From the NCBI GenBank assembly GCA_937923145.1, contig CALAJT010000014.1, positions 1 to 62,969 on the forward strand: DNA of 62,969 bases. Direction: 5' to 3'. Below the pieces are notes generated by a model. That model was not told the DNA's origin, did not search any database, and was given only the letters and a program-made list of their open reading frames with translations. Of the stretch, positions 26,271 through 58,754 are shown one piece after another (within the stretch, counting starts at the first letter, position 1; each line of letters begins with the position of its first letter). Source of the stretch: an uncultured Rubritalea sp. (lineage in GTDB: Bacteria > Verrucomicrobiota > Verrucomicrobiia > Verrucomicrobiales > Akkermansiaceae). Both the position numbers and the translations under genes were made by a program.

Positions 26271-26356
26271 GGGTAGATGGCCGAGTGGTTAAAGGCGGCA
26301 GACTGTAAATCTGCTCACGTAAGTGTACGAAGGTTCGAATCCTTCTCTGCCCACCA
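26271..26356 (+). tRNA. tRNA-Tyr (GTA anticodon)
   Basis: A class II tRNA of 86 nt including an encoded CCA. The acceptor GGGTAGA pairs with TCTGCCC. The D arm is GCCGAGTGGTTAAAGGC. The anticodon stem-loop is GCAGA-CTGTAAA-TCTGC with anticodon GTA, followed by a long variable arm and the T arm GAAGGTTCGAATCCTTC. Its 3' 57 bp form the left attachment site of the integrated element, so the tRNA is kept functional after insertion. Confidence 0.96.
26300..26356 (+). repeat. Left attachment site (attL) in tRNA-Tyr
   Basis: This 57-bp segment, from the anticodon arm to CCA, is identical to 58698-58754. Integration by tyrosine recombinases typically uses the 3' half of tRNA genes, and this orientation leaves an intact tRNA on the left. 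Confidence 0.9.
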
Positions 26357-26622: not shown

Positions 26623-27228
26623 ATGAATGAAGGGCTCGATCATTTACACTCAGCATCCCTTAGAATAGATTTAGAAACCACTAAGATGAATAACCCCAAT
26701 AGACCCGAGATTTTTGACTCCGCTGTGAAAGAGCATAGCGGGGCAATGCTGCATTACTTATACAGTCTCTGCAACGACTGGCAAATCGCAGAGGATTTGA
26801 GCCAGGACTTATGGAAGGCGGTGCATCGTGGTTTCACTGAACATGCTATGCAGCAAAAATCATTGCTCTATCATAAAGCCAAGCAAGTCTTCATCGATTA
26901 CTACAGGAAGATAAAGCGTAGGGTGGAACTAGATTACACAGACGAACTGCCAGAGCCTATCCTCATGCCAAAGAGAGCAGAGCCAGAAAACAAGCAGGAA
27001 GACAAATTGCTATACGATCGGTTCTGGGAGATCTTCTACCCAGATGAATATGACGAGACATCGAAGCTAATCTTTTGGCTTCATGAGCGCTATGGATATA
27101 CTATGCAGGAAGTGAGTAAAATCACGGGTGTCTCTAAATCCACAGCACACGATAAATTAACAAGACTCAAGTCAGCCTGTAAACGCAGAATTGAGCGCAA
27201 CAATGAACAGGAGGTAAACCATGCCTAA
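26623..27228 (+). CDS. ECF-type RNA polymerase sigma factor
   Basis: Protein of 201 residues (or 180 if the ATG at 26686, MNNPNRPEIFD, is the true start). Region 2 is LYSLCNDWQIAEDLSQDLWKA with the typical DAEDLxQxxW-like motif. Region 4 is YGYTMQEVSKITGVSKSTAHDKLTRLKSACKRR (residues about 156-188), an HTH. It is the first element gene after attL. It overlaps the small downstream gene by 8 bp, so the small protein is probably its partner or regulator. Targets are unknown. Confidence 0.8.
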   Translation: MNEGLDHLHSASLRIDLETTKMNNPNRPEIFDSAVKEHSGAMLHYLYSLCNDWQIAEDLSQDLWKAVHRGFTEHAMQQKSLLYHKAKQVFIDYYRKIKRRVELDYTDELPEPILMPKRAEPENKQEDKLLYDRFWEIFYPDEYDETSKLIFWLHERYGYTMQEVSKITGVSKSTAHDKLTRLKSACKRRIERNNEQEVNHA

Positions 27229-27433
27229 CACAGAAACATTCACCGACGCAGACCTCACTAACATGGTGAGAGGATTCGACGCACCAGCGAAAGAAGAGCT
27301 ACTCGAAAAGCTTCTCTCACAAGCGAAAGAGCGCGACCAAGAAATCAACGAACAATCCGAGGACGATTCCCTAGACGCGTTTTACCGTAGAAAGGATGAA
27401 AGCAAGAATAGAGATAATGATAGAGAACGATAG
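27221..27433 (+). CDS. Small acidic protein coupled to the sigma factor
   Basis: Protein of 70 residues: very acidic and charged, with an Asp/Glu/Arg-rich C-terminus and no membrane segment. AGGAGG at 27209-27214 is a strong ribosome binding site, six bases before the ATG, and the gene overlaps the sigma gene by 8 bp. It could be a soluble anti-sigma factor, by position only. Confidence 0.55.
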   Translation: MPNTETFTDADLTNMVRGFDAPAKEELLEKLLSQAKERDQEINEQSEDDSLDAFYRRKDESKNRDNDRER

Positions 27434-27560: not shown

Positions 27561-27696
27561 CATGACTGTCTACAGTAGGATAGCTGACCTTTAGCGGTAA
27601 CTTGCATGACCTTCTACAGTGGCAAAGATGACTGTCTACAGTATGTGTTTTCCTGAAAATGACCTTTTCGAGTGAGATACATGACCTTTTACAGTA
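27561..27696 (+). repeat. Iteron array, putative plasmid replication origin
   Basis: Six direct copies of a 17-bp motif, consensus catgacYKTYTACAGTa, start at 27561, 27583 (degenerate), 27605, 27627, 27658 (degenerate) and 27680. Spacing is exactly 22 bp except for one 31-bp step. Iterons phased at two helical turns upstream of a Rep_3 gene are the classic binding sites of the initiator. The AT-rich stretch that follows may be the melting region. Confidence 0.85.
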
Positions 27697-27777
27697 TCAC
27701 AGTGATAAGGATTTTCCCACTTTCGTCATATACAAGGGAAAAGGAGAATCTGCATCAAATCTAGGATATGGTCTATT

Positions 27778-27878: not shown

Positions 27879-29222
27879 ATGTCATGAGTTTTGACTTCAT
27901 TGCTGGAAAAGAATCAGATGGTGAAGAAGCACATCGCCACAGTGCATGTAGAAGCGAATCTGAGTTTGTTAGAGCGTAAAATGTTCAATGTCCTATTGCT
28001 CAATGCCTATCCCAAACTTCTCCAGCAGAAGAATCACAAAATGCGATACACTGCACTATGTGAACTAATCGGCTACGATTCTTGAGATCGACTAGCGATC
28101 AAGAAAGCCCTTCGTAATATCGCCAAGACTCAAATCGAATGGATCTGAACGAATGACAAATGAAAAGAGGTGTCCTGGAAGGTCTATAATTATCTATCTT
28201 CCGCTGAGATTAAATGGTGAGCCGACTCATTTGAATATGGCTTTGATGAGAAGCTTGCGGAGCATCTCTATAATCCAGAAGTATTCGCCCAGATAAGCCT
28301 TATTTCGCAGAGAAAATTCAGTAGTAAATACACACTGAATCTCTACGAAAATTGCGCTCGCTATCGAAAAAATAAGAAGTTCAAGGGTCTTACTCCAGTC
28401 TGGGATATTGACCTCTTCCGTAAGTTCATGGGAATCTGAGAGGCAAAGCTCTACTCAACCTTTGCTGAACTCAATCGACGGATCTTGAAGCCATCGATTA
28501 AAGAGATTAACGAGCACTCAGATATTTATTTAGATCTAGAAATTTTCAAAGAGGGCAGGAGAGTCTCAGGGCTACAATTTCAAGTCACAGACAATCCCAA
28601 TCAAGCTCAAATGAAATTACCGTGAGTAGAGGATGAAACTGAAATAGCGAGTGCCTCAGATAATCCTGCGGTGATAAAGTGCATCGAATTAGGGGTAGGA
28701 GAGTGAGTATCTATTCAATGGCTCAAGAGCTATGGAGAAGCCTACATGATGGAAAAAATCCAACTTGCTGAAACAGCTAAGAAAGAAGATTGAATCCGAA
28801 CGAGTGTCGCTGGATGGCTAGTTCGAGCAGTTCGTGATAATTACCAGAATGAAAACCCATCTGCACAGCTAGCAGAACAGAAAAAAATCACCCGTGAAAC
28901 CAAGCGGCAACAACAGGAAAAACAGTGGGAAGAAGCTGATCAACATGCAGAAGAGCTACGTAAGAAAAGAGAGGATTCAAGGTTAGCTGTAAACCAACAC
29001 CTCGAATCTTTAACTGAAGATGCACTTCAGGCTCAGCAAAACGCCTTCATTGAAGCTCTAGCTCTTAATCCAGAGAAAGACCTGTCAGAACTCGACAAAT
29101 CGCACCACGAGGCATTCCACGACTGGATTGCCGAACAGAATAATCTCTGAAACCCTTATCCAGTAATCAGAGCCAACCGACAGAAGCAAAAGCTTCTGGA
29201 TAAAGTAAGTTTACCAGATTAG
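27879..29222 (+). CDS. rep: Rep_3-family plasmid replication initiator, intact only with TGA = Gly
   Basis: Read with TGA as glycine, one frame runs 447 codons from ATG 27879 to TAG 29220. It has ten in-frame TGAs (27885, 28083, 28146, 28161, 28218, 28437, 28623, 28704, 28791, 29148) and no TAA, TAG or frameshift. The standard code leaves only a 64-residue piece. Rep_3 landmarks run in order: LSLLERKMFNVLLLNAYPKL, LCELIGYDS, LYNPEVFAQISLISQRKFSS, YTLNLYENCARYR, WDIDLFRKFMGI, FAELNRRILKPSIKEINEHS and EGRRVSGLQFQV. These are the two winged-helix domains that bind iterons. The C-terminal third is charged and helical. Trp is always TGG, so TGA is not Trp. The only plausible ATG, at 27879, has TGA as its third codon. 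Confidence 0.88.
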
Positions 29223-29277
29223 CTATCTCCACAGAACGCAACAAGTAGGGGAGCCTTCCTCACTTCACATTGTAATC

Positions 29278-29299
29278 CCTCCAGTCTCGGAGGTATTTT
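29278..29299 (+). terminator. Intrinsic terminator after rep
   Basis: The stem CCTCC (29278-29282) pairs with GGAGG (29289-29293) over a 6-nt loop, followed by TATTTTT. It lies 56 bp downstream of the rep stop codon. Confidence 0.7.
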
Positions 29300-29421
29300 T
29301 AGTAGTCTCATTTTTAACAACCTAGAACCTCCTTACAGTCGGTCTCCAAGTTGCCTCCTCACTTCTCGGGATTTCTATGACTCGTGAGTCACATGGCTCA
29401 ATTATTCTTAACCATTTTATT

Positions 29422-29913
29422 ATGGGACAATATCATCAGTTGGTGAACTTTGATCGGAAGGAGGTTGTTCATCCGCATAAGTTAGGGCTGGGACTTAAAC
29501 AGGCTGAGCATACTGGGTGTCCTGCATCGTTGAGCGATGCACTGTATATGCTTGTTTGCACTTCTCCAGCTGGGGGAGGTGGAGATTTACTAATGCTTCC
29601 CGAGCGAGAATTAGAATTTAAGAGCTTTTGACGATGGGTAGGTGATATAGTAACCGTGTTTTGAGACTATACAGATGCATCTGAACTTGCTCTTCTTGAT
29701 AGAGTTTATCCCAATGACTGGGCGAGGGATAACGCTAGCCTAAGCACGTATATCGGGTTTTTTACTGACATAACAGATCAACTCATTCCTGCATTTGAAG
29801 CTGCTTATGGAGTCAAAATAGAGAAAGATTCGAAGGGGTGGAGAGAGCGGAATTTAGTCGCAGAAGAATGGAGCTGGCTTTTTCCAGATCTTGACGACGA
29901 AAAAACCGCCTAG
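29422..29913 (+). CDS. Recoded hypothetical protein, two TGA = Gly codons
   Basis: Protein of 163 residues with TGA at 29629 and 29662 read as Gly, giving FKSF-G-RWVGDIVTVF-G-DYTD; it ends at TAG 29911. I prefer the ATG at 29422 (MGQYHQLVNFDRKEVVHPHK), although the frame is open from 29377. It resembles small MGQYHxxVN-type proteins of phages and plasmids, whose function is unknown. There are no other stops. It lies between rep and the DUF2958 gene on the same strand. Confidence 0.75.
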
Positions 29914-29930
29914 TCTTAAATCGGCGGTTT
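29903..29930 (+). terminator. Hairpin overlapping the stop of the recoded hypothetical gene
   Basis: AAACCGCC (29903-29910) pairs perfectly with GGCGGTTT (29923-29930) across a 12-nt loop that contains the TAG stop. The T-run is short, so this may be a terminator or an RNA-stability element. Confidence 0.5.
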
Positions 29931-29991
29931 AACTTACACGAGGGCATCAGATTTACTGGAGCTCTCTTTTACTATTCTAATCATTTTATAA

Positions 29992-30384
29992 ATGAATTCA
30001 ATTTCTTCTAACGACCAGTCAAATGACGGACACTTTCCATACGGTAATCAACCAAGTTACCGAGACTTCCTCATTCCAAAGGAACTCATCAAGCTATTCC
30101 AAGAACATAATCAAGCGAATCGTGAGACTTCTGATCCGCTCATTGTAACTAAATACTTCAATCCAGCATGAGCGCAGACTTGGTATATGACCGAGTATTA
30201 TGAGGATGATGGAATCTTCTACGGATTTGTTACAGGTATGCCATTTCCAGAATGGTGAACGATGAGCCTTCAAGAGTTCATCTGACTTAACCTACCGTTC
30301 AGACTAAAAGTAGAACGTGATATTCACTTTCATCCTACACCTTTTAGCAAGGCTGTGTCAGAGGCTGATAAAGAATATAGCTAA
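29992..30384 (+). CDS. DUF2958-family protein, intact only with TGA = Gly
   Basis: Protein of 130 residues ending at TAA 30382, with TGAs at 30169, 30256 and 30283. The core reads KYFNPA-G-AQTWYMTEYYED, then FPEW-G-TMSLQEFI-G-LNLP, then LKVERDIHFHPTPF. DUF2958 proteins carry a conserved Gly before the TW(Y/L)xTE motif and another in the PE(L/W)GxxSLxE motif. The first two TGAs sit exactly on these glycines, which is the best single piece of evidence for the glycine meaning. The role of DUF2958 is unknown; such genes are common on plasmids and phages. Confidence 0.88.
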
Positions 30385-30462: not shown

Positions 30463-30480
30463 TGTACATGTTTATTGTAC
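30463..30480 (+). promoter_or_regulatory. Probable YefM-type operator
   Basis: TGTACATGTTTATTGTAC is an imperfect palindrome built around TGTAC/GTAC(A), close in type to YefM operators. It lies 13 bp before the antitoxin ATG and overlaps the expected promoter (TTGACG at 30450). Autoregulation by the toxin-antitoxin complex is usual for this family. Confidence 0.5.
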
Positions 30481-30492
30481 CTATATTCTATT

Positions 30493-30747
30493 ATGACCAC
30501 TATAAGTTACAGTTCTTTGAGACAAAATTTACGCTCCGTTATGGATAACATTAACGCAGATAGGAGTGTGTTTGAAGTTGCCCGTAAAGGACAAGAGACA
30601 GTCGTGATGATGAGTAAACATGACTATGACTCGCTTCAAGAAACTTTATATTTACTATCTAGTAAGGCCAATGCAGACCGTTTACACGAATCATTGAAGC
30701 AGGCGGAGCGAGGAGAGTTTGTTCATCATGATTTAATCGAAGAATAA
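30493..30747 (+). CDS. yefM: Antitoxin of the Phd/YefM family
   Basis: 84 residues from the ATG at 30493 (MTTISYSSLRQNLRSVMDNI); a TTG at 30475 would extend it. The N-terminal DNA-binding domain is typical of Phd/YefM, and the segment VEVARKGQETVVMMSKHDYD-like (FEVARKGQETVVMM) is diagnostic. The acidic C-terminus binds the toxin. TAA and the toxin ATG overlap by one base. The code cannot be told: no in-frame TGA and TAA stops. Confidence 0.88.
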   Translation: MTTISYSSLRQNLRSVMDNINADRSVFEVARKGQETVVMMSKHDYDSLQETLYLLSSKANADRLHESLKQAERGEFVHHDLIEE

Positions 30748-31007
30748 TGCTACTTTCTTGGACAAAAATTGGCTGGGAAGATTACACATTCTGGCAACAA
30801 GAGGATAAAAGAACAATTAAGCGAATCAATAAGCTGATAAAAGATATTCTTCGTGATCCTTTTGATGGACTAGGTAACCCAGAACCTCTCAAACATTCAC
30901 TCACGGGATTATGGTCGAGAAGGATTACCCAAGAGCATCGAATCATTTATGAGATAAAAAAAGATCAATTGATCGTTCATCAATGTCGGTTTCATTATCG
31001 AAAATAA
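30747..31007 (+). CDS. yoeB: Toxin of the YoeB family (Txe/YoeB mRNA endonuclease)
   Basis: 86 residues, normal for YoeB. LLSWTKIGWEDYTFWQQEDK, then IKDILRDPFDGLGNPEPLKH, LWSRRITQEHRIIYE and a final VHQCRFHYRK match YoeB, including the catalytic Glu, Arg, His and C-terminal Tyr region. It is a ribosome-dependent mRNA interferase that would stabilise the plasmid or element. Confidence 0.9.
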   Translation: MLLSWTKIGWEDYTFWQQEDKRTIKRINKLIKDILRDPFDGLGNPEPLKHSLTGLWSRRITQEHRIIYEIKKDQLIVHQCRFHYRK

Positions 31008-31023: not shown

Positions 31024-31602
31024 TCAAATCTTTTTCTCAATCACCCCAATATCCCGCTGAATAGTCCTCAGTGATACACTGGGCAACCTCTCTACAATCT
31101 CAGACGCACTTTGTCCTCCAGCTAGCAGGCGTTCCACTTCTGCTAGACGAGCTTCTTTACTCAGGGGCTTATCAGCCTCTTGCCTCGCTACCTGGATACC
31201 ACGTTCCATCTCTTTCTTAATCGAGTGCATCAGCGACTCGAAGGAAAGGAAGAGCAGCACTGGGGGAGTAGCAGCGAGACAACGAGCCAGCCACGAGTCT
31301 CCCACATGCATCATGTTGAACAACACACTGCCTGTAGTCGCCAATACTACTAGTAACCGCATCATCGTGGCTGACTCCTTTCGCAAAGAAGCTCTCAAGG
31401 CACACAAAGAAAATACCACTACTGCGCCATCTACCATGAGTGGAAATAAGTAGCCGAGATGTGCTAGCACTACTTTTTCTCTGACCGCCAAATCTTTGAG
31501 TGCTTCGAAGGACAGAGAGAAAGAAACTAAAGCTAGGCCTCCGACCATGAAAGAACTTAGCCAACTAATTTTACCGACGATATGATGATCACTGAGCTTC
31601 AT
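31024..31602 (-). CDS. DUF2637-like membrane protein with C-terminal HTH
   Basis: Protein of 192 residues. Four hydrophobic segments (about 12-30, 45-68, 80-96 and 106-120) match the DUF2637 pattern, with SLSFEALKDLAV and LGYLFPLMVDGAVVVFSLCA. The last 60 residues contain LAEVERLLAGGQSASEIVERL followed by a SLRTIQRD helix, a DNA-binding HTH. DUF2637 proteins are common on mobile elements, and the actual function is unknown. It is convergent with yoeB, and a repeat-rich region lies upstream. Confidence 0.7.
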   Translation of the reverse strand: MKLSDHHIVGKISWLSSFMVGGLALVSFSLSFEALKDLAVREKVVLAHLGYLFPLMVDGAVVVFSLCALRASLRKESATMMRLLVVLATTGSVLFNMMHVGDSWLARCLAATPPVLLFLSFESLMHSIKKEMERGIQVARQEADKPLSKEARLAEVERLLAGGQSASEIVERLPSVSLRTIQRDIGVIEKKI

Positions 31603-32247: not shown

Positions 32248-33573
32248 GTGGTTACATTTGAAAAACAGTCAGAGGCTATATCATCTCTACAGGAAGAATT
32301 CTGTGCGAGAGGCACGGCTGTGTCTATTTCGGTTAGAGACATTATGGACTCAACTCCGATATGTTCAGCCCATAAGATTCATTCGTATCCTGCGAAGTTA
32401 TTACCAAATCTTGCGAAACTACTAATTAATTCTCATTTAATGCCTAGTGGGGGAAAGTTACTAGATCCTTTCTGCGGAACGGGCACAACTTTGCTAGAAG
32501 GAGTAAGTGTAGCCTCACGTTTATATGGGGCTGACGCAAATCCTTTAGCAAGATTAATAACCTCAGTTAAGTTAAGTAAAGCCCCTATAGGCAGTGAGGC
32601 AATTTTGAAATCGATCGAACGAGGGATCAGGCAACGTCGAAAAGAAATCAAGAGTCATCACGAAATTCTATCTAGGTGGTTCACTAAAAAAGACTTAAAT
32701 GATATTACATATATCAAAAACAGAATTTCATTGATTGACAACAATTGCCTTAAAAACTTTCTGAATGTATGCTTATCATCTATTTTGAAAGATCTTTCGT
32801 GTGCTGATCCAAGGATAGCTGTTCCTGTAAAATTGAAGGACTCGACATACCCTGAAGATCATTGGTATAGAAGACAGTCTTTGAAGAAAATCACTGATTT
32901 TGGGTCAAAAGATGTATTTAATGAATTTTCTCGCCGAGTTTTACAATACTTGAACATCAAACAGCAGCAGAATTACAGTGAAAATTTTTATCTTTTTGAG
33001 GATTCAAGAGAACTAGCTTATAGAAATAACCATAGAACCCTCCAGTCAAATTCAATTGATTTTGTAGTTACATCTCCTCCATATGGAACTGCTCAAAAAT
33101 ACATTAGATCATCCACATTTTCGTTGTTGGTATTGGATTTACATGAAGATCTAAGTATGTCAGAATTAGATAGGAAAATCATAGGCTCTGAAAAAGTGTT
33201 GATTTCAGATAGGTCGGCACCACCTCAGCAGACGAAATCACGACAAGCAAACAAAGTAATCACTGACGTTTTTGAAGAGTCGCCATATCGAGCACACCTT
33301 TATGCAACATACATGAATGAAATGCAAAAGTTCCTTGAAGAGTCTTATAGAGTCTTAAAACCTAACGCAAATTTGTGCCTTGTTGTTGGCAATAACCAAG
33401 TATCGGGTAGATTATTTGAAACTTCTGAGTATTTAAAAGAGGCTGCTGGACTTATCGGGTTTAAAACTACTGGGCACTTCATTGATAGCATTAAGTCTAG
33501 AGGACTAATGACAAGAAGAAATAGCAGTTCAGGATTAATTGCTCATGAGCACATTCTAGTTTTTCAAAAGTAA
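32248..33573 (+). CDS. DNA methyltransferase (N4-cytosine/N6-adenine type)
   Basis: 441 residues with a GTG start. Motif I is LLDPFCGTGTTLLEG (residues about 72-86), and the catalytic motif IV is VVTSPPYGTAQKY (about 274-286); SPPY is often N4-cytosine. VLKPNANLCLVVGNN follows. The large insert between motifs (about 110-255) may be the target-recognition part. No restriction nuclease is next to it. It begins a tight operon (2-, 15- and -14-bp gaps) with a PRTase-like and an ATPase gene. The gene contains no in-frame TGA, unlike the recoded genes nearby. Confidence 0.88.
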   Translation: MVTFEKQSEAISSLQEEFCARGTAVSISVRDIMDSTPICSAHKIHSYPAKLLPNLAKLLINSHLMPSGGKLLDPFCGTGTTLLEGVSVASRLYGADANPLARLITSVKLSKAPIGSEAILKSIERGIRQRRKEIKSHHEILSRWFTKKDLNDITYIKNRISLIDNNCLKNFLNVCLSSILKDLSCADPRIAVPVKLKDSTYPEDHWYRRQSLKKITDFGSKDVFNEFSRRVLQYLNIKQQQNYSENFYLFEDSRELAYRNNHRTLQSNSIDFVVTSPPYGTAQKYIRSSTFSLLVLDLHEDLSMSELDRKIIGSEKVLISDRSAPPQQTKSRQANKVITDVFEESPYRAHLYATYMNEMQKFLEESYRVLKPNANLCLVVGNNQVSGRLFETSEYLKEAAGLIGFKTTGHFIDSIKSRGLMTRRNSSSGLIAHEHILVFQK

Positions 33574-33575
33574 TT

Positions 33576-34472
33576 ATGACTATCCCTCCGGAATCCATCA
33601 GAAAATTTAGAGTCCTCATTAATACCGTTTGGAAGGATAAAGGTATCACAATACCACGGATAGAGGAGTGGGTTCAAAACTTTAATGGGGCGAGCCTTGA
33701 TGAGGATAAAGAACGTGCACTTATGATTAAGTTACTTGAGCATTTTTTATTTATTGGGGCTGATGAAAGAAAGGAGTTAAGTCGTAGTTTGTTTACAAAT
33801 TTATGCAGAGATTTAACTGCCTATCCTGTAGGCGATGACTCAAGTTCTGCGAAGAAAATAATTAGTGAGCGTCTGAATAAAACACGGTTTGCTGCTGTTG
33901 GAGGACCTTCTGAGAGTTCGACTATGATTCTGTATGAAATACGAACTTTTAATGGGTTACCTAATAGTATAATTCCAGATTTGGAGAACTTGTTAGAACA
34001 AGTAGAACGGGGAGAAGTGGAATACATTATATTTATAGATGATTTTTGCTGCACAGGTCAACAGGTTAAGGAAAGAGAAACGAAATTCATTAACAACGTA
34101 AGAACTATGAATCCTAATATTTATATAGGATATCGACTCTTATGTGCGACTAAATCAGCAATTAACAACTTAACCGCAAGCAAACTTTTTGACTCTGTTG
34201 ATGCATCCATGGTCTTTGATGATGATTACAAATCATTTAATCAAAATAGCGTGTTTTTCAAAGACAGAGAAAAAGATCTAGAGCTAAGTAAAACTGTTGC
34301 ACATGAATATGGCAGGTCTCTATGGTGTGATAAACACTCTTTGGGGTATAAAGGCTCTCAAATGCTATTAGGGTTTGTCCATAATGTTCCTGATAATACG
34401 TTACCGATCTTTTGGTTTAATGAAAATCCCGAAAAATGGTGTTCAATTTTTCCACGCGCACATAAAATTTAA
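33576..34472 (+). CDS. Phosphoribosyltransferase-like protein (PRTase-CE-like) of a conflict system
   Basis: 298 residues. The segment VEYIIFIDDFCCTGQQVKE matches the PRPP-binding loop of type I phosphoribosyltransferases (hydrophobic strand, DD, then TG). Upstream, FAAVGGPSESSTMILYEIRT would be the neighbouring strand-helix. I recall a family of this kind (PRTase-CE), described computationally together with ORC/CDC6-like ATPases in prokaryotic conflict systems. I could not search, so the assignment rests on motif and neighbourhood. The substrate is unknown. It lies 2 bp after the methyltransferase gene. Confidence 0.65.
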   Translation: MTIPPESIRKFRVLINTVWKDKGITIPRIEEWVQNFNGASLDEDKERALMIKLLEHFLFIGADERKELSRSLFTNLCRDLTAYPVGDDSSSAKKIISERLNKTRFAAVGGPSESSTMILYEIRTFNGLPNSIIPDLENLLEQVERGEVEYIIFIDDFCCTGQQVKERETKFINNVRTMNPNIYIGYRLLCATKSAINNLTASKLFDSVDASMVFDDDYKSFNQNSVFFKDREKDLELSKTVAHEYGRSLWCDKHSLGYKGSQMLLGFVHNVPDNTLPIFWFNENPEKWCSIFPRAHKI

Positions 34473-34487
34473 CTTGCCCAATCAACT

Positions 34488-36446
34488 ATGTCTAATGAAA
34501 ATCCTTTCTCACTTACCCGAGCTTCTGATTTAAAGGATCAGCAGATTGCAGAATTTTGGGTTGATCCAGAGTCTCTCCTGTTTAACAGATTGCGCCCGCA
34601 ATCTCAGTTACCGATGTTTATTTTGGGTGGTAAGGGTTCAGGGAAAACCCATATTATGAGATACCTTTCGTATGCTATACAAAGAATCGTCTTTACTGAA
34701 AAAGATTCAGTGCGTGAGTATGGCTATTTGGGAGTATATCTTAGAGCTTCAGGTTTAAATGGTAATCGATTTAAAGGCAAGGGGTTTACTGATGAAGAGT
34801 GGGAGAAAGTCTTCGTTTACCATTCAGAGCTTTGGCTTGGAAGGGAACTTTGTAACACTATATCTACCTACCTAGAAGATATTGGTCAAATTGACTTATT
34901 AGATAATAGAGTTTTAATGGACAATATCATAAAGTTGTTAGATTACGATGACGTGTCGATAGAAAAATTTGATGATCTTGTAGACCATTTAGAAAACCGG
35001 AGAAGAGATCTTGATTTGAAAATTAACAACATGAGTTTTTCACGAGAGCTTAAGTTGAATATCGATTTGACTGTTGGTTTCTTGTTTAGACTAGCTAATG
35101 TTGTAAGCGCCTGTATACCTTGCCTTAAAAATACTCAATTTACAATTTTGATAGATGAGTATGAGAATCTAACGGAAATGCAACAACGGCATTTTAATAC
35201 ACTTGTAAGAGAACGTGAAGGGAGTGTCTCATTCAAAATAGGCGCTCGCTTGTATGGTGTGAAGACATGGCGAACTAATTCTGCCCAAGAAGAATTAAAG
35301 TTAGATTCAGAATACGAAAGGATTAATCTCGATGAAATGCTGAGAAAAGATTCTTCGAAATATCGAGATTTTGCACGAAGCCTCACGCTAGATAAAATAT
35401 CAAAAGCTTTTGATAAGCCTGTTAAGGATATATCACTAGATGATATTTTTCCTGTCATTAAAGGTTCAGAGTTTAATACAGATAGAAGACCTTGGTTGGA
35501 TTCTCTACGGAATGACTTAGGTAAATATTCTTTAAGGATAGATTCGTTGAACGTTACTAGCCCTCAACGAATCAATGAAATTATAGAAAATATAGCTCAC
35601 CATGATGCTTTGATAGAAAAAACAAATTGTTTTTTACTATATAGAGCATGGTCAAAAAATAGTGATTTACTTCAACTCTCTATCGAAATTAAGGAGTCAG
35701 CGGTTATCTACAGCGCTGATTTTTCAAAGCCTTCACTACATCACACGGCCCTAGATAAATTCAGGTCAGATCTTGTAGATCAGATGAAAAGGGATCTTAA
35801 TATCCCGTTACTCAACTCTGGTGTAGATAAATGGATAGACATGTCTAACGGAATTATCAGGAATTATTTGACTATACTTAAGAACATATTTGATGGGGCA
35901 AATGATTGCGGTGAGTCAGATTTATTAAATGTAGGAATCTCTGAAAGAGCCCAAACCATGGGTGTGGAGGATAGCTGTCAATGGTTTTTAGATGACGCTA
36001 CAGTTTTAGGAGACTCAGAGGGAATCGTTAAACAATCGCTCTCTAGTATTTGTCACCTACTTGAACAATTACGCTTTTCTAAGAAACCTTCAGAGTGTTC
36101 TTTGTCTACATTTTCTGTTGATTTATCAACTATGATTCCATCTGCTAGAGATTGTATTGACCAAGCTTATAAGTGGTCACTACTCATACCTCAAAACTCA
36201 AGATACGATAGAAATAGTTCAATTAAGATAGCTCAGTTTAGAGTTAATGGCATGGTGGCACCAATTTATAATTTACCTCTATACACACGTGGTCAGATAA
36301 CTCTAACATCGGAAGAATCTAATGTGATTTTTTCAGGGGTAGCAGATAAGGACTACCTGAATTTAGTGAAGAAACGAGTAAAGAGATGTAATCCTCCATT
36401 CGAGTTATCAAAACAACCTAAAAAATCAGAAGATGAACTTTTCTAA
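34488..36446 (+). CDS. ORC/CDC6-like AAA+ ATPase of a conflict system
   Basis: 652 residues. Walker A is FILGGKGSGKTHIMRYL (residues about 45-61), Walker B is FTILIDEYENLTE (about 217-229), and RREGSVSFKIGAR-like (EREGSVSFKIGARLYG) may supply sensor 1. The domain before Walker A, NPFSLTRASDLKDQQIAEFW, fits ORC-CDC6-like family proteins. The C-terminal half (about 350-650) has no recognised domain. In such systems the ATPase is thought to sense invading DNA or its absence of methylation; that role is inference here. It overlaps the next gene by 14 bp. Confidence 0.65.
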   Translation: MSNENPFSLTRASDLKDQQIAEFWVDPESLLFNRLRPQSQLPMFILGGKGSGKTHIMRYLSYAIQRIVFTEKDSVREYGYLGVYLRASGLNGNRFKGKGFTDEEWEKVFVYHSELWLGRELCNTISTYLEDIGQIDLLDNRVLMDNIIKLLDYDDVSIEKFDDLVDHLENRRRDLDLKINNMSFSRELKLNIDLTVGFLFRLANVVSACIPCLKNTQFTILIDEYENLTEMQQRHFNTLVREREGSVSFKIGARLYGVKTWRTNSAQEELKLDSEYERINLDEMLRKDSSKYRDFARSLTLDKISKAFDKPVKDISLDDIFPVIKGSEFNTDRRPWLDSLRNDLGKYSLRIDSLNVTSPQRINEIIENIAHHDALIEKTNCFLLYRAWSKNSDLLQLSIEIKESAVIYSADFSKPSLHHTALDKFRSDLVDQMKRDLNIPLLNSGVDKWIDMSNGIIRNYLTILKNIFDGANDCGESDLLNVGISERAQTMGVEDSCQWFLDDATVLGDSEGIVKQSLSSICHLLEQLRFSKKPSECSLSTFSVDLSTMIPSARDCIDQAYKWSLLIPQNSRYDRNSSIKIAQFRVNGMVAPIYNLPLYTRGQITLTSEESNVIFSGVADKDYLNLVKKRVKRCNPPFELSKQPKKSEDELF

Positions 36447-37377
36447 TTATCTCCTTTCAAAGACACAGCGTTTTGATGCAACAAGTAAATTTCCTGAAAA
36501 GGCTTACGATGTTTTCATCAGTGTATATAATACTAGTGAGCGAGTTACCGCTGCATTCAATCAGGTTAATGCACGTCGTAAAATTTGGATCGTTTTGCCT
36601 GAATATGGGGTTGCAGGAGAAGGACTAGATGGTGAGATTTTTGTTGGAGGAGGTTTTAGTGAAGATGAAGTGATTGGTGAGATTTTAAAGCAATTAAACT
36701 TAACTCCATCATTGCGTGTTTGCATAGATTCTACAGGTTTTTTAAGACCACATCTCCTGTATAGTTTAGCTTGGCTGAATTATCATAGTATTCGTAAATA
36801 TTTCATACTCTATACTAATCCAATATCTTATAAAAAAGGATCCGAAACAATTTTTTCTGAAGGGGGAAGTGCCAAGGAAGTAAGACAGATATACGGATAT
36901 GAAGGAATACATAGCAGTGATACAAATAAAGAATTTTTAATTGTAGGATGTGGATATGATGCTAACAGAGTAATCGAAGTAAATAAAGATAAAGCCAGAT
37001 CTAGAAAAGTTAAAATGTTTTCATTTCCTCCTCTTCGACCTCATATGTATCAAGAAAGTCGCATAAGAATTCAAGCATGTGATGATTCATTTGGAGATCC
37101 TTTTGGTACTATTTTTTCACCAGCTGAAGATCCTTTTGCAACAGCTGATGCTCTAAGTAGATTTTATAATAGTTATAAAAATAAAATTAGTAATTTGTAT
37201 TTAAGTCCATTATCAACCAAAGCTCAAGTTGTAGGTTTCGGTATTTTTTACTTGAACGAATGCCAAGGGAAAGCTGTTAGTATTATTTACCCCTTTGTTA
37301 ATGCATACAACCCTGATACCAGTGATGGCGTATCAAATTTTTGGGAGTATCACGTTAATTTAGACCTTTATATTTGA
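36433..37377 (+). CDS. Unknown alpha/beta protein, last gene of the defence-like operon
   Basis: 314 residues. An alternating strand-helix N-terminus contains YDVFISVYNTSERVTAAF and RRKIWIVLPEYG; a second half is YLIFILYTNPISYKK-like (YFILYTNPISYKKG), FLIVGCGYDANRVIEV and FGDPFGTIFSPAEDPFATAD. The Rossmann-like pattern suggests a nucleotide or ligand-binding protein. I recognise no family. It overlaps the ATPase by 14 bp, so it is part of the same system and could be effector or sensor. It ends in TGA (37375-37377), so the operon is standard-code. Confidence 0.55.
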   Translation: MNFSNYLLSKTQRFDATSKFPEKAYDVFISVYNTSERVTAAFNQVNARRKIWIVLPEYGVAGEGLDGEIFVGGGFSEDEVIGEILKQLNLTPSLRVCIDSTGFLRPHLLYSLAWLNYHSIRKYFILYTNPISYKKGSETIFSEGGSAKEVRQIYGYEGIHSSDTNKEFLIVGCGYDANRVIEVNKDKARSRKVKMFSFPPLRPHMYQESRIRIQACDDSFGDPFGTIFSPAEDPFATADALSRFYNSYKNKISNLYLSPLSTKAQVVGFGIFYLNECQGKAVSIIYPFVNAYNPDTSDGVSNFWEYHVNLDLYI

Positions 37378-39419: not shown

Positions 39420-39998
39420 CTATATTCCTAGATGCTTGTAGAGATCCAGGAATTGCGCTCGAATGTCTTTGAGTGCATAGCGTGTGAGTCATCCTCGCTT
39501 GTATTTCTCCTCAATGGATTCTGGGATGAATAGCATTTCAGCGACAAATTTAGAGTTTCGTATATGAAAGACAGGGTATCCGCTCTCCCCTGAGATAAGG
39601 TCTTTGATTTCTTCATATTCAGCGACTTTCATTGAGTTCGCTACTATGACGATATTTTTGTTGAGCTTCTCGACTTGTTTAATACCTCTCAGAGCTCGTT
39701 TAAGCTCTTCTACTCCGTAGATAGTGGGAATGATCACCCAATCAGCTCTCTGGATCGCCTGCTTGACCACAGGCTCATCAATTCCCGCTTTCCCATCGAA
39801 GACGACTCACATATCAGCAGGAATGTCTGGAAGTTCGTCATCGTTACGAAGCTTGATGACTCTCTCTTCAGGAAGAAATTCATCCACGGAACTATCTATG
39901 TCATTAGTGATAATGCCGAATCCTTTTTCGTATGCAATAGCATGAGAAATGGTGGACTTCCCTTGTGATCCTTTTGTCCCGACAACTGTGATTAACAT
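39420..39998 (-). CDS. parA: ParA-like partition ATPase, intact only with TGA = Gly
   Basis: 192 residues from ATG 39998 to TAG 39420-39422, with TGAs at 39807-39809 and 39489-39491. MLITVVGTKGSQGKSTISHA is the deviant Walker A motif of ParA/MinD ATPases (KGxxGKST with two Lys). IPADM-G-VVFDGKAGID is the Walker B region, and ADWVIIPTIYGVEELKRAL follows. The short length is typical of plasmid ParA/ParF types that work with a small RHH partner, which is encoded directly downstream. In the standard code the gene falls into three pieces. Confidence 0.82.
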
Positions 39999-40251: not shown

Positions 40252-40330
40252 TTATATTCATTTTTTATGATGAGCAAATTTTTTGTTCGAAGAAAGTGGT
40301 AGTATAGATCAGATGATCGTAGATTTATGT

Positions 40331-40378
40331 CATTTTGTCTCATCCTGAGTCATTATTTCTTACTAAAGTGACAAAATG
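40331..40378. promoter_or_regulatory. Inverted repeat upstream of groES, possible activator site
   Basis: CATTTTGTC (40331-40339) and GACAAAATG (40370-40378) are perfect 9-bp arms about 30 bp apart. They lie roughly 85-130 bp upstream of a sigma-54-like promoter, where enhancer-binding proteins bind. Confidence 0.5.
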
Positions 40379-40460
40379 TCTAGCTGTCAATTTGCTGGTG
40401 ACTCAGGCTGTAAATTCGCAAAGTATTGATAAACAATGATCTATAATTTTTTTTGAAGGA

Positions 40461-40476
40461 TGGCATGATTTGTGCA
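40461..40476 (+). promoter_or_regulatory. Sigma-54-type promoter of groES/groEL
   Basis: TGGCATG-ATTT-GTGCA fits the -24/-12 consensus TGGCAYR-N4-TTGCW except for one base, with correct GG and GC spacing. It lies about 60 bp before groES. I see no CIRCE element. If correct, this groESL is not under classical heat-shock control. Confidence 0.5.
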
Positions 40477-40538
40477 TATTTTGAGTCTGATTGTGAAGGT
40501 ATCACAGTCAGTAATACAAACGTAAAATTAAGAATACT

Positions 40539-40829
40539 ATGACTAATATTAAACCATTAGGTCAACGCGTTCTGCTGAAGCGTGTTGAACCAGAAACAAC
40601 TAGTGAGGGAGGGATTATCCTCGTTGAATCTGCTCAAGAAAAGCCGCAAGAGGCTATTGTAATAGCCTTAGGCTTGGGAGCAAAAAATGAGGATGGCTCT
40701 GAGTTTAAATTCTCTGTGTCGGTTGATGACAGGGTGGTTTTACCAAAATATGGTGGGACGGAAATTAAAATAAGTGGAGAGGATCACCTCATTGTTACAG
40801 AGGGTGAGATTCTAGGTATCGTTGCATAA
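40539..40829 (+). CDS. groES: Co-chaperonin GroES
   Basis: 96 residues. IKPLGQRVLLKRVEPETTSEGGIILVESAQE-type start (residues about 4-34) contains the mobile loop; VVLPKYGGTEIKISGEDHLI and EGEILGIV end it. It caps the GroEL cavity. It is followed by groEL after 31 bp. That it is carried inside an integrated element is unusual. Confidence 0.96.
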   Translation: MTNIKPLGQRVLLKRVEPETTSEGGIILVESAQEKPQEAIVIALGLGAKNEDGSEFKFSVSVDDRVVLPKYGGTEIKISGEDHLIVTEGEILGIVA

Positions 40830-40845
40830 CTTACTAAAAATATAA

Positions 40846-42492
<1,647 letters not shown>

Positions 42493-42671
42493 TCATAATG
42501 CTTCAAAAGTTCTTAGGGTATGATGATCAATGCTTTATGCTCTAAGAGCTTCTTATAAAGAAAAATTTTACGCAAAAAGACAAAAGTGGCGGATGGTGTC
42601 GCTAGTTAGTGTGATTGCTAATTAGGTAAAAAGCATTTCTTGAGAAAAGAACTATAAACGATTAACTAAAG

Positions 42672-43394
42672 ATGATTGAAGTCACTGATCTGACCAAAAA
42701 ATTCGGAAGTAAACATGCTGTGGACAGCCTATCGTTCACTGTTGAAAAAGGGGAGGTATTAGGATTCCTAGGACCGAATGGTGCGGGGAAATCTACTACT
42801 ATGAGGATGATTACGGGATTTGTCTCGCCTTCTGCGGGAACGATTCGTGTCTGTGGTTATGATGTTAGTAAAGATCCTGAAGCGGTGAAAACTAAGATAG
42901 GTTATTTGCCAGAGTCGGCTCCATTATATCCAGATATGACCGTTTTGAGCTTTTTGAAGTTCTGTGCAAGTATCAGGGGGATCAAGGGGCAGCCGCAAAA
43001 GGATGCTGTGGAGAAAGTGATTGAGACATGCTTCCTTCATAAGGTGACGCATCAATCTATAGATACTTTGTCTAAGGGGTATCAACATAGAACATGCTTG
43101 GCTCAGGCTTTATTACACGATCCAGAGGTCTTAATTTTAGACGAACCTACAGATGGACTTGACCCTAATCAAAAGCATGAGGTGAGGAAGTTGATTAGAG
43201 AATTAGGGAAAACAAAATCTGTTCTATTTTCAACTCATATTCTTGAGGAGGTGGATGCTGCATGTTCTAGAGTAGTCATCGTCGATCAAGGGAAGATGAT
43301 AAAGGAGGGAACACCTGAGAAACTTTTGGCAGAGTCAGGGTGTTCAGATTTACATACATTATTTAGAGAAATAACCACTACTGAAACTTATTAG
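42672..43394 (+). CDS. ABC transporter ATP-binding protein (GldA-like)
   Basis: 240 residues. Walker A GPNGAGKST, Walker B VLILDEPTDGLD and a degenerate signature LSKGYQHRT. With the ABC-2 permease and the GldG-like protein it forms the GldA/F/G-type complex, known from gliding motility in Bacteroidetes but widespread in other phyla, including Verrucomicrobiota. It is the first gene of a long same-strand run with short gaps. Confidence 0.9.
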   Translation: MIEVTDLTKKFGSKHAVDSLSFTVEKGEVLGFLGPNGAGKSTTMRMITGFVSPSAGTIRVCGYDVSKDPEAVKTKIGYLPESAPLYPDMTVLSFLKFCASIRGIKGQPQKDAVEKVIETCFLHKVTHQSIDTLSKGYQHRTCLAQALLHDPEVLILDEPTDGLDPNQKHEVRKLIRELGKTKSVLFSTHILEEVDAACSRVVIVDQGKMIKEGTPEKLLAESGCSDLHTLFREITTTETY

Positions 43395-43398
43395 AACC

Positions 43399-44154
43399 AT
43401 GAAAATATCGTATCTTCGTTGCACTGGTGCTGTTGAGGTATTTAAACGCGAATTGATTAGTTTTTTTACTCAGATCACAGCTTACGCACTCATTGTTGTC
43501 TTCCTACTTCTCTCGTTAGGATTTTGTTTTTCCTTTGGTCATTTTATGGAAATAGGTGACGCAAGCTTGGAGTTTTCTTTCTTTCGCTGGCTACCATGGT
43601 TCTTTATGTTTCTGGTGCCGGCTGTGGGAATGCGCTTATGGTCTGATGAATACCGCAACGGCACTATAGAATTGATCGGGACAATGCCGATTCCTACTCA
43701 CTCTATCATCATTGGGAAATATTGCGCTGCGCTGGCAGTATGGGGAGTAGCATTAGCTCTGACCTTTCCTATCTGGATAGTGGTGAATTATCTTGGTGAA
43801 CCAGATAATAGCCTGATTCTAGCGAGCTACCTTACCAGTTTCCTGGTTTGTGCTTGTTTTCTTGCTGTGACCTCTCTGGTCTCGGCATTTACTCGGGATC
43901 AGGTGGTGAGCTTGGTTGTCGCTGTTTTCCTTTGTGCTTGTATGACGTTAGCAGGATACGAGCCTATTTTACGTTCTTTTAGAACGGTTTTCCCAGACTG
44001 GTTGACTGAGGTTATTGCTTCAGCCACGGTCGATGAGCATTTTCGCTCAGGTATACGAGGGCATCTTCGTATCCATGATCTCGTCTGGTTTGTTAGTATT
44101 ATAGTAAGTTGCTTGATTGGAACTAGTGCCGTTCTCAAAGCAAAAAGAACCTAA
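43399..44154 (+). CDS. ABC-2 type permease (GldF-like)
   Basis: 251 residues with six hydrophobic segments (about 24-46, 57-77, 105-125, 135-157, 166-184 and 226-245) and the ABC-2 motif EYRNGTIELIGTMPI after the second segment. The 4-bp gap to the ATPase gene indicates one complex. The exported substrate is unknown. Confidence 0.88.
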   Translation: MKISYLRCTGAVEVFKRELISFFTQITAYALIVVFLLLSLGFCFSFGHFMEIGDASLEFSFFRWLPWFFMFLVPAVGMRLWSDEYRNGTIELIGTMPIPTHSIIIGKYCAALAVWGVALALTFPIWIVVNYLGEPDNSLILASYLTSFLVCACFLAVTSLVSAFTRDQVVSLVVAVFLCACMTLAGYEPILRSFRTVFPDWLTEVIASATVDEHFRSGIRGHLRIHDLVWFVSIIVSCLIGTSAVLKAKRT

Positions 44155-44181
44155 ATAAATCAATTATAACTATTATAAATT

Positions 44182-46131: not shown

Positions 46132-46159
46132 CTCTAAACACTAAATAAAATAATTAATT

Positions 46160-47434
46160 ATGTCTATTAAATCACTTATCAGTTTATGGGTAATAGCCAT
46201 TACTCTTTTGGTTGTTACACTCACTATACGGTCTAATCAAAATGTAGAGATTAGCTCAGATACAAAGATACAGGTAGGAAAAGCATTACTGAGTCATTTG
46301 GATTCTGACCCTATCCGAGAAGTTAAAATCCATTCGAAGGGGAAATCTAAGCACTTCAAAAAAGTTGGAGATAGCTGGGTGATACCTTCCAAAGAGGACT
46401 TTCCTGCAAACTCGCAAAAGGTGATCCGAGAGTTGACAGGCTTGTTTGACTCTAAGGTGTCTCAACCTTTGAAAACTTCGGATAAATATCATGAGAGGTT
46501 TGGAGTAGATGAAAAATCAGAATCTCTAACAAAAGTAGAGTTTTATGATGAACAAGGCAATACGATAGAAAAGGTCTATCTTGGAAATACGATCAAAGGA
46601 GCTTCTAGCAATCCCATGATGGGAGGAGCTAGTTATCCTATCGGGAGGAAAGTGAGGCTGGATTCTGAACCTGACACAGTTTATTCCCTCAGTCAGACAC
46701 ACGCGGGGCTGGAAAGTGAGATAGCTGATTGGCTAAATAAGAAGTTCCTTGTGATAGAGGGTATCCAATCGATTTCTAAAGAGGCTACAACTAAAACGAA
46801 AAAAAATGATGGGTGGAAAATGTTTGATCCTGCTCGCAAGGCATTGCCTTACTTTGGATTTAGTTTCATGTCGATGGTTGAGGATGGCTGGACATTGAGT
46901 AAAACTAAAAAAGACGAATCTTTTGCTCTTATCAATACACCAAAGGGAAAGCAAGTGAAGCAAAGTGCTGTTGACCAATTTAAATCGTTATTAAGTAGCG
47001 CTAGCTTTGAAGAGGTTCTTGGGAAGAAATCTTTGAGTAAATGGCTTGAAAAACGTCCAGATAGTCAGGTGAATAAATATTCTATCACCACATTTGATGG
47101 ATTTACTTATAAGATTCAACTGGCTCCAGAGAACTCAGATAAAAAGGACTCTAATTATGTCCTTTCTTATGAGGTGATTCACAATATTCCAAAGAACTCT
47201 GAGGCTGAAAAGGCATTTGAGGACGATAAAAAGGAGCAGAAAAAACTAACAGAGAGATTAGAGGTTCAGATAGTATTTAGTCAATACCTTTACATGGTTC
47301 AGCGCAGTATTATTGAGCCATTACTACGAAATAAAGAAGACTTTCTAGAAGGTCTTCCTGATCCTGAAACTAATAAGAAAGCATCTGAAAAAGTTGGGAA
47401 TGAAGTAGAATCTGATGAAATAAAGCAAGAATGA
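46160..47434 (+). CDS. DUF4340 domain membrane-anchored protein
   Basis: 424 residues. N-terminal transmembrane segment (about 7-24), then repeated DUF4340 beta-rich units (HSKGKSKHFKKVGDSWVIPS and GVDEKSESLTKVEFYDEQGN). DUF4340 proteins typically follow GldG-like genes, as here. It ends in TGA (47432-47434), consistent with the standard code. The function is unknown. Confidence 0.85.
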   Translation: MSIKSLISLWVIAITLLVVTLTIRSNQNVEISSDTKIQVGKALLSHLDSDPIREVKIHSKGKSKHFKKVGDSWVIPSKEDFPANSQKVIRELTGLFDSKVSQPLKTSDKYHERFGVDEKSESLTKVEFYDEQGNTIEKVYLGNTIKGASSNPMMGGASYPIGRKVRLDSEPDTVYSLSQTHAGLESEIADWLNKKFLVIEGIQSISKEATTKTKKNDGWKMFDPARKALPYFGFSFMSMVEDGWTLSKTKKDESFALINTPKGKQVKQSAVDQFKSLLSSASFEEVLGKKSLSKWLEKRPDSQVNKYSITTFDGFTYKIQLAPENSDKKDSNYVLSYEVIHNIPKNSEAEKAFEDDKKEQKKLTERLEVQIVFSQYLYMVQRSIIEPLLRNKEDFLEGLPDPETNKKASEKVGNEVESDEIKQE

Positions 47435-47519
47435 ATATCACTAGAAACCTTATTAGAATTATCATTCCTTTTCTTAAACGACTGATCCAACATACCGTAA
47501 AATAAACATAATAGATAGA

Positions 47520-48671: not shown

Positions 48672-48763
48672 TTTTTTATAATCTTTTCATGAACTGGGCC
48701 GCGGGCTTGGTTTGCGAATCTTAATGAGATATTCAGGAAGGAATAATACAGGAACTTATACTT

Positions 48764-50665: not shown

Positions 50666-50693
50666 TTAGATAAGGTCGAACTCTTAACAAACT

Positions 50694-57045: not shown

Positions 57046-57258
57046 ATGAAGACACAACAACGACCTCAGCCATTTGTGAAAGTAATCCAGACAGAAGATA
57101 AGCTCATTACTCGTAAGATGGCTTCTGAGCGTCTCTGTGTGTCGACCAGAACGATTGACCGAATGGTAGAGAAGGGATGGCTTGAGAAGGTCTTTGTGGG
57201 GGCTTCTCCACGATTTCGTAAACATGACATCGATAAGATTGTCGAGCAGGTGGTTTAA
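57046..57258 (+). CDS. Small HTH protein, putative excisionase
   Basis: 70 residues. LITRKMASERLCVSTRTIDR then MVEKGWLEKVF is a MerR/HTH_17-like winged helix as in excisionase-like proteins. It is 6 bp from the end of the integrase gene, with converging orientation, a common position for recombination directionality factors. Confidence 0.75.
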   Translation: MKTQQRPQPFVKVIQTEDKLITRKMASERLCVSTRTIDRMVEKGWLEKVFVGASPRFRKHDIDKIVEQVV

Positions 57259-57264: not shown

Positions 57265-58368
57265 TTAGCTGAGTAGATTATTTCCAATAGACGGAACAAC
57301 TCTGTTTTTCTGGTCTGCGTAGATACTGGAGGTTATGCGGATATCACTGTGTCGGAGGTATCGTGATGATGCAAAAATACCTTCTTCGCTGGCTATAATG
57401 CTGCCGATTTCTTTTCTAAGTTCATGGATAGGCTTTTGTGCATGAACACCGTTCGCTCGAAGCCATTTTTTAAGTGTTTCTATTGCTCCACGGCAACGGT
57501 AGGAGCGGGTTGTTTTAGAACGATCTAATGTGCCTTTGGATTCGATCACAAATTCTCCTGAAGCTTGTTTCTGGAAATTTTTGAAGATTCGCTTCATGTC
57601 TTCACTGAGTGCTATTTCACCAGCAGAGTCTTCGCTCTTGAGTTGGTGGTATTCTGTGTCTTCGATGATGAGTAAGCCTGTGGAGAAATCAAAGGCATCC
57701 CAGAGAAGGTAGTCGATTTCAGAAACACGGAGTCCACAGACAAGGGCAAGGAGGATCATCTTGTAGGATTCTGGTTCTTGGTCTTTTAGGTCTTGATGAG
57801 CGAGTTTCAGGATGTTTTTTGCATCTATTTTACTGTGATAGCGAGAAGAAGGGGGCTTTTCCATGGTGACGTCTGCAAAGGGGAGTGGGGATGGGATTTC
57901 TAGGTCTTGTGTCAGAAACGGAAGAAGCTTTTTTGCAAAGAGCGTCTTTGAATTTCGGATGATACTATTGACGGTTGTAATAGCTTTCTTTTTAGCGGTA
58001 GCGGTCTTGCTGTGTTCTCTGAAGTAAGTCTGCTTCCAGTTCTGGATACGAGCAGGAGTGAGTTCTGAGAGGAGAACAGAGTCTACCTGTGCTCTCCAAT
58101 CATCTAGTCTACATTCTTTACGAGGAACAAAAGATTTTTGTTCAAGTTCCATGACACCAGAGACTATTCTGCGGAATGCTTTGATGTATGCTTGTAGGCT
58201 CTGAACACGGGCTGAAGAGTATTTGAGGTTCGCTTGAATTAGCTCACCTACAGTCTTCCCTAATGGAGACTCTTCAGGTTCTTCTTTAATGGCATGAGGT
58301 TTGTATTTTTCAAGAGTAGCGTCCCAGCCATTTTCTATGAGGTAATTGAATATTTTGGAGGCTTTCAC
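57265..58368 (-). CDS. int: Tyrosine recombinase (phage-type integrase)
   Basis: 367 residues from GTG 58368. The N-terminal SAM-like core-binding domain is at about 30-170. The catalytic part has LVCGLRVSEIDYLLWD (Arg), a YHQLKSEDSAGEI stretch (Lys), HELRKEIGSIIA (His-x-x-Arg), YLRHSDIRITSSIYAD (His and nucleophilic Tyr). It would catalyse the integration into tRNA-Tyr. It lies 330 bp from attR. Confidence 0.95.
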   Translation of the reverse strand: MKASKIFNYLIENGWDATLEKYKPHAIKEEPEESPLGKTVGELIQANLKYSSARVQSLQAYIKAFRRIVSGVMELEQKSFVPRKECRLDDWRAQVDSVLLSELTPARIQNWKQTYFREHSKTATAKKKAITTVNSIIRNSKTLFAKKLLPFLTQDLEIPSPLPFADVTMEKPPSSRYHSKIDAKNILKLAHQDLKDQEPESYKMILLALVCGLRVSEIDYLLWDAFDFSTGLLIIEDTEYHQLKSEDSAGEIALSEDMKRIFKNFQKQASGEFVIESKGTLDRSKTTRSYRCRGAIETLKKWLRANGVHAQKPIHELRKEIGSIIASEEGIFASSRYLRHSDIRITSSIYADQKNRVVPSIGNNLLS

Positions 58369-58697: not shown

Positions 58698-58754
58698 AGA
58701 CTGTAAATCTGCTCACGTAAGTGTACGAAGGTTCGAATCCTTCTCTGCCCACCA
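58698..58754 (+). repeat. Right attachment site (attR)
   Basis: Identical to 26300-26356, the 3' 57 bp of tRNA-Tyr including CCA. The 5' half of the tRNA is missing here (replaced by AGCGTTATTTAGT), so it is not a second tRNA gene. Confidence 0.9.

Follow-up and report, generated by a model that had tools for sequence, protein, structure and literature searches.

The stretch of DNA analysed here (the window) is 62,969 nucleotides long and constitutes the entire contig C14 (CALAJT010000014.1) of a draft genome (2.70 Mb; completeness 92.1%, contamination 0.05%) from an uncultured Rubritalea sp. (Akkermansiaceae, Verrucomicrobiales). It carries an integrated element whose plasmid-type replication genes are crossed by in-frame TGA codons. 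Below, G numbers denote genomes, L numbers loci or contig stretches, and P numbers database protein rows. Three consecutive genes on the forward strand were examined: rep, encoding a Rep_3-family initiator (27879..29222), a conserved hypothetical gene (29422..29913) and a DUF2958 gene (29992..30384). The initial annotation had described 15 in-frame TGAs in these genes without an internal TAA or TAG, and the frames were found as described. Under translation table 25 they read through, with 10, 2 and 3 TGA codons respectively and no other internal stop, and they terminate at TAG, TAG and TAA. By base composition alone, the chance of a frame free of TAA and TAG is 1e-9 for rep, 1e-3 for the hypothetical gene and 2.6e-3 for the DUF2958 gene. 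The family search proposed at the same time gave Pfam matches that extend across the TGAs (Rep3_N, 1.8e-20; Rep3_C, 5.7e-18; DUF2958, 6.3e-19), while the hypothetical gene matched no Pfam family. The rep profile also matches RepE (PDB 1rep), with both the WH1 and the WH2 domain present. The count of ten TGAs in rep holds for the frame as a whole, although the one at codon 3 (27885) may lie 5' of the true start, because relatives align only from residue ~6-14.

The meaning of TGA was then read from alignment columns. Element copies and database relatives were aligned, TGA was masked, and the best-fitting amino acid was asked for each TGA column; 33 of 42 columns were used, nine having fewer than four rows or low occupancy. 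A second hypothetical gene of the elements was excluded, as was Trp in database rows, because the latter is possibly TGA read by table 4. Over the 33 columns the log10 odds were +8.2 for Gly, −9.6 for Ala, −34.0 for Cys and −35.1 for Trp, and 14 of the window's 15 columns taken alone gave +7.5 for Gly, the next being Ser at −4.9. The controls GGA, GGC, CGA, AGA and TGG were read correctly, TGG scoring as Trp in agreement with the earlier claim, and TGC was misread (Ala first, Cys third, over 11 columns). CGA reads as Arg (+9.7) and does not stand at Trp columns. Among the 218 residues that face a rep TGA in other rep copies there are 75 Gly, 31 Ala and 22 Lys, and neither Trp nor Cys. In the hypothetical gene both TGAs lie at Gly columns, with Gly in 30/30 and 28/30 of the database rows used (30 of 94 matches). 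P0008, which is the same gene as L033, and P0024 were excluded from these counts of facing residues. Glycine is therefore the best reading of TGA in the three genes, as initially annotated, on the column scores and on facing residues without Trp or Cys.

Two alternative amino acids were rejected, Trp for the worst column score and Cys for a score nearly as low. Hypermutation of the G to A or C to T type was discarded as a source of the TGAs by reasoning, since a change from GGA to TGA is a transversion.

Of the two DUF2958 glycines reported as conserved, at 30169 and 30256, both are indeed so, the exceptions being Trp in some database rows, possibly TGA translated by table 4. Trp at Gly columns is found in 8 of the 53 database relatives examined (P0004, P0005, P0009, P0025, P0026, P0028, P0029 and P0030), as table-4 translation of TGA-containing genes would give. 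In a predicted model of the rep product (mean pLDDT 74.4), 7 of 9 TGA sites fall in loops, compared with 28% of residues 26-444; this placement is weak support, because the model was built with Gly at the TGA sites. Some columns speak against glycine. The third DUF2958 TGA, at 30283, faces Glu or Asp in most relatives, rep TGAs 187 and 305 do not face a conserved Gly, and the three comparable TGA columns of the second hypothetical gene hold Glu, Leu and Glu. A rep-less copy of the element in G262 has a TGA at a nearly invariant Arg, and the TGAs of a copy on a contig labelled Alteromonadaceae (L033) do not face Gly.

The recoding is wider than the three genes initially described. A ParA-like partition ATPase gene on the reverse strand of the window (39423..39998; Pfam CbiA/ParA, sub-threshold) contains 2 in-frame TGAs, and further copies occur in G163, G343 and G269. 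In the host family, all four ParA matches at E ≤ 1e-8 carry TGA and none carries TAA or TAG. One copy (L162, G269:C97), with 2 TGAs, loses similarity after ~134 codons, near a tRNA-Lys gene. Additionally, G317 encodes a second, TGA-carrying ParA (Pfam 7.8e-10) and a tyrosine recombinase (Xer) with 5 TGAs (Pfam 1.3e-25). A second Xer copy of the same genome has 3 TGAs, and two of the five TGA sites are GGA there. One of these is the glycine of what we take to be the recombinase GHS motif, encoded by TGA in one copy and by GGA in the other.

Other genes of the same elements follow the standard code. Over the aligned region no TGA was present in the sigma factor gene (8 copies), the small gene adjoining it (8), the DUF2637 gene (5) or the integrase gene (L064, L065, L066 and the window). 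The DUF2637 gene of the window and the Fic and sigma factor genes of G317 end in TGA, so that TGA serves as a stop inside the same elements; the G317 Fic gene sits between TGA-carrying genes. The recoded genes contain 83 TGA to 225 GGN codons and the other genes 0 to 203, a ratio that is descriptive only, the genes having been grouped by the presence of TGA. The recoded set resembles a plasmid's requirements, namely replication, partition and dimer resolution, and the standard set those of an integrated element, in a grouping made after the data were seen. In three loci (L060 2106-3218, L065, and L120 2772-3962) rep, or the site of rep, is followed downstream by a Fic gene; the L060 copy has DUF4172 and Fic domains, and the L065 and L120 copies were named by similarity.

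We examined selection by dN/dS, with TGA counted as Gly, and by codon counts. For rep, dN/dS was 0.134 between the window and G343, and 0.078 between the two copies of G317, for which dS is near saturation (2.8). These two copies exchange TGA for GGN at 8 sites and for other codons at 2, and share TGA at 4; a TGA-GGN swap was also seen at 2 of 5 Xer TGA sites and once in ParA. The window ParA gene differs from its relatives by 29 synonymous and 3 non-synonymous codons (G163), 57 and 10 (G343), and 48 and 16 (G269), and the Xer copies differ by 122 synonymous and 13 non-synonymous codons. The rep, ParA and Xer genes are thus under purifying selection with TGA as a glycine codon, and, being preserved by selection, they must have been translated somewhere at some time. 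Random decay was rejected on this selection together with the absence of TAA and TAG. To call the genes dead, as had been done at first, is therefore too strong for the lineage, with selection on the two small genes not clear.

The host itself uses TGA as a stop, as the initial annotation had assumed. Among non-overlapping open reading frames of at least 150 aa in the window, 11 of 47 end in TGA, and release factor 2 (RF2) matches were found in all six element-bearing genomes, in five of them over the curated cut-off (G343 has two, partial or sub-threshold). No tRNA with a UCA anticodon was present among the 35 host tRNAs, in the window or in the fetched element loci. A pattern search of the six host genomes returned 40 matches, none of which is a UCA tRNA: typing covered 30 of them within their 29 loci and a further 8 after retrieval, and of the remaining two one is a Leu tRNA and the other has the same sequence as that Leu tRNA. 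The hosts are 77-98% complete, and an unbinned replicon could therefore still carry such a tRNA. An array of 12 tRNAs on one strand in L119 (G317:C36, 10919-13694), perhaps belonging to a phage, is likewise without a UCA anticodon. The plain prediction is that the module genes would be silent in this host, stopping at the first UGA.

The element recurs in the host family. A rep profile search of 260 genomes of this family detected 8 copies in 6 genomes, some cut by contig ends; each has 4-10 in-frame TGAs and no TAA or TAG. They span three genera, with identity down to ~40%. Two of them, from G268 (L065 1507-2871 and L052 1344-2567), are nearly alike at the C-terminus and unlike at the N-terminus, as in a mosaic. 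Searches of 386 genomes across the order added two genomes with weak, stop-free matches only, and 387 genomes across the phylum yielded five distant, stop-free relatives, every one of them from a single other family. The matched stretches of seven rep relatives from other bacteria and of one viral contig are also stop-free. A related rep copy with few TGAs lies on the Alteromonadaceae-labelled contig L033. As an internal control, DUF2958 was searched in the same 260 genomes: five element-type copies carry 1-4 TGAs, and 15 other matches are stop-free, G317 itself contributing four of these. Because these other DUF2958 matches and the distant rep relatives are stop-free, the recoding is a property of the element, and not of the host or of the protein family.

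Best matches had been expected in plasmids of Absconditabacteria or Gracilibacteria. Rep and DUF2958 matches in plasmid records are all below 60% identity, and a scan of GTDB species contigs by peptide patterns, which reach only close relatives, gave 10 loci, none titled Patescibacteria. In IMG/VR, query A4 retrieved one distant relative, stop-free, and queries A5 and A2 none; the hypothetical gene was unmatched in phage records.

The boundaries of the element in the window are given by two exact 57-bp direct repeats. The left one (26300-26356, forward) is the last 57 bp of the tRNA-Tyr gene that forms the integration site (26271..26356, forward, ARAGORN), and its exact copy at 58698..58754 (forward) marks the right end. 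Just inside the latter lies a tyrosine integrase gene on the reverse strand (57265..58368; no TGA, ending in TAA; Pfam Phage_integrase 2.3e-12), preceded by a small excisionase-like gene without TGA (57046..57258, forward), named by eye, whose relatives adjoin the integrase. In related loci an integrase frame lies beside tRNA-Asn (L034), tRNA-Lys (L065) and tRNA-Val (L066), and no second attachment repeat was present within the stretches fetched for these three. The L065 frame has no Pfam match at 1e-5 and was named by 55% identity to the L064 integrase. G262 holds its shorter, rep-less copy at the same tRNA-Tyr gene, and in L034 the element lies in a 72-kb contig together with dnaX, tgt and secDF.

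Between the left end and rep, on the forward strand, are an ECF-type sigma factor gene in standard code ending in TAA (26623..27228; Pfam Sigma70_r2 2.5e-6; NCBIfam sigma70-ECF), a gene for a small charged protein of 70 aa found in the same eight loci as the sigma factor and TGA-free in the aligned region (27221..27433), and five iteron-like direct repeats, recognised by sequence, with a spacing of 22-44 bp (27561..27707). The DUF2958 gene is followed by genes for a YefM-type antitoxin (30475..30747; Pfam PhdYeFM_antitox 2.9e-19) and a YoeB-type toxin (30747..31007; Pfam YoeB_toxin 5.1e-38), both forward and without TGA, and by the DUF2637 gene on the reverse strand in standard code, ending in TGA (31024..31602; Pfam 1.4e-19). 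Standard-code cargo on the forward strand (32248..37377) encodes an N6/N4 DNA methylase, a PRTase-CE protein and proteins of 652 and 314 aa; the methylase and the PRTase-CE protein are perhaps a defence system. From 40300 to 57000 the window holds genes from a groEL copy to vWA/MoxR genes, the latter named by eye, as cargo or through rearrangement. In G343 the sequences matching window 39.6-40.3 kb and the integrase end are 57 bp apart; this 40.3-57.0 kb segment, being absent at the corresponding junction, is thus an extra insertion or a rearrangement. Its groEL is a second copy, at 71% to the groEL on contig C22, and in G262 the genes matching the segment are on a different contig from the tRNA-Tyr element.

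Taken together, we consider it fairly probable that this is a tRNA-integrating element of standard-code Verrucomicrobiales that holds two codes, and whose plasmid-state genes are likely translated only where UGA means glycine. Its integration genes are written in the standard code, and rep, ParA, DUF2958 and the hypothetical gene (with Xer in a relative) would assume UGA as Gly. While integrated, the replication module would be silent and the element carried passively. Should its DNA reach an environment in which UGA is Gly, Rep, ParA and the recombinase could be made full-length and the element might replicate from its iterons in plasmid form; once back in a cell with the standard code, it would be inserted at a tRNA gene by its integrase, which lacks TGA. 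This environment would most likely be a bacterium that uses code 25 and lives in contact with the host. Such a partner cell is favoured because Gracilibacteria and Absconditabacteria, described as likely episymbiotic (PMC8406219), are known to use exactly this code (PMC8629427, PMC10746230). In Absconditabacteria CGA/CGG are reported to mean Trp (PMC8629427); the Arg reading of CGA speaks against them as the partner and, by the same token, against the Absconditabacteria source named in the initial annotation. A more tentative step, possible and short of probable, is that the element shuttles between the two codes, silent in the standard-code chromosome and a plasmid only in the UGA=Gly partner, with the code itself as the switch.

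Several observations weigh against this reading. The GTDB contig scan, which reached close relatives only, revealed no copy in a code-25 genome, and the genomes that bear the element are drafts in 53-350 contigs. The window ParA scores 2.2e-4 and 21.6 bits against Pfam CbiA/ParA, where the curated cut-off is 25.4. For the mosaic pair of rep copies in G268, dN/dS is 0.38 (C-terminal part alone, 0.26), dS was saturated in four further rep pairs, and between the window and G343 the synonymous to non-synonymous counts are 9/7 for the hypothetical gene and 34/42 for DUF2958, from which selection is not clear. The rep GC3 is not uniformly low.

The same two-code element could instead be decoded within a Verrucomicrobiales cell, with a helper phage or plasmid providing the glycine suppressor tRNA in trans; through the TGAs, replication would then be gated to the presence of that helper, much as helper plasmids turn on the replication of SGI1-like islands. 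Standard-code hosts do harbour recoded phages and prophages, which often carry suppressor tRNAs (PMC10746230), island replication triggered by a helper is known (PMC7433901), and rep GC3 (0.41-0.62) lies within the host range, its correlation with host GC3 not being significant (r 0.55, p 0.16, n=8). Against these stand the lack of a UCA tRNA in the window, the 35 host tRNAs, the element loci and the pattern search of the six hosts, and the fact that no helper was identified, and we regard this alternative as rather unlikely. We hold it improbable that the hosts themselves decode UGA as Gly, at a low level or under stress, through an unrecognised tRNA or mechanism that would allow weak expression in place. 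The conservation of rep in these hosts would fit, but RF2 exceeds the cut-off in five of the six, with partial matches in the other one, a gene with up to 10 UGAs would by reasoning give a tiny yield, no candidate tRNA was found, and near-cognate reading as Trp mismatches the Gly columns.

The initial annotation had favoured a recent one-way transfer of a plasmid from Absconditabacteria or Gracilibacteria into the chromosome, where it would now be a dead fragment. The code does match code 25, yet copies in 6 of 260 family genomes with the same recurring TGA-free neighbours, eight rep copies in three genera diverging to ~40% identity, integrases beside four different tRNA genes and purifying selection on rep make this single event very improbable. 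Ordinary pseudogenes or assembly errors, suggested by in-frame stops in draft genomes and by the G262 copy, which has lost rep and has a TGA at a nearly invariant Arg, are next to negligible as an explanation: element-type rep, DUF2958 and ParA matches contain only TGA and never TAA or TAG, and the TGAs stand mostly at Gly columns, in separate assemblies.

The two-code element thus remains the preferred explanation. Differing codes are generally regarded as an obstacle to gene transfer; this element family appears to live to either side of that obstacle, which it may even exploit as a switch. If true, this would make it the plasmid-like equivalent of phages that switch codes. It also directs attention to a partner or tRNA of these bacteria, with UGA=Gly, that has yet to be seen, and is a warning that such genes are missed or mistranslated by gene callers. 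In the literature covered, with preprints and most subscription papers outside its scope, nothing was found that describes a plasmid-like element whose replication module reads UGA as Gly while its hosts use the standard code. A Verrucomicrobia endosymbiont is reported with UGA as Trp, a meaning other than that found here (PMC8204192).

The closest precedent is given by phages and prophages that are recoded although their hosts use the standard code, and that often carry a suppressor tRNA of their own. Prophages recoded within standard-code genomes are cited in PMC10746230, which also reports phages whose CRISPR-spacer links run to CPR as well as to standard-code bacteria, two of these phages being clearly in code 25. 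Alternatively coded phages and prophages (codes 4 and 15; PMC10746230) resemble the element in being mobile DNA with other-code genes in a standard-code host, and their recoding may delay the expression of selected genes. Unlike them, the element recodes plasmid replication and partition genes with UGA as Gly, has a plasmid-like look, and no suppressor tRNA was found in the window. With the code 25 of Gracilibacteria and Absconditabacteria it shares UGA as Gly and the stops UAA and UAG, whereas its hosts have RF2 and TGA stops, no tRNA-Gly(UCA) was found in them, and CGA is Arg, unlike in Absconditabacteria. By sequence, Rep_3 (RepE-like) iteron plasmids share the WH1/WH2 domains and the iteron-like repeats by rep, but differ from the element in its in-frame TGAs at glycine positions and its integration beside tRNA genes. 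Finally, SGI1-like helper-dependent elements are described (PMC7433901) as integrated islands with their own rep and iteron origin and conditional replication, much as proposed here; their gate is transcriptional (AcaCD), whereas the gate proposed for the present element is the genetic code.

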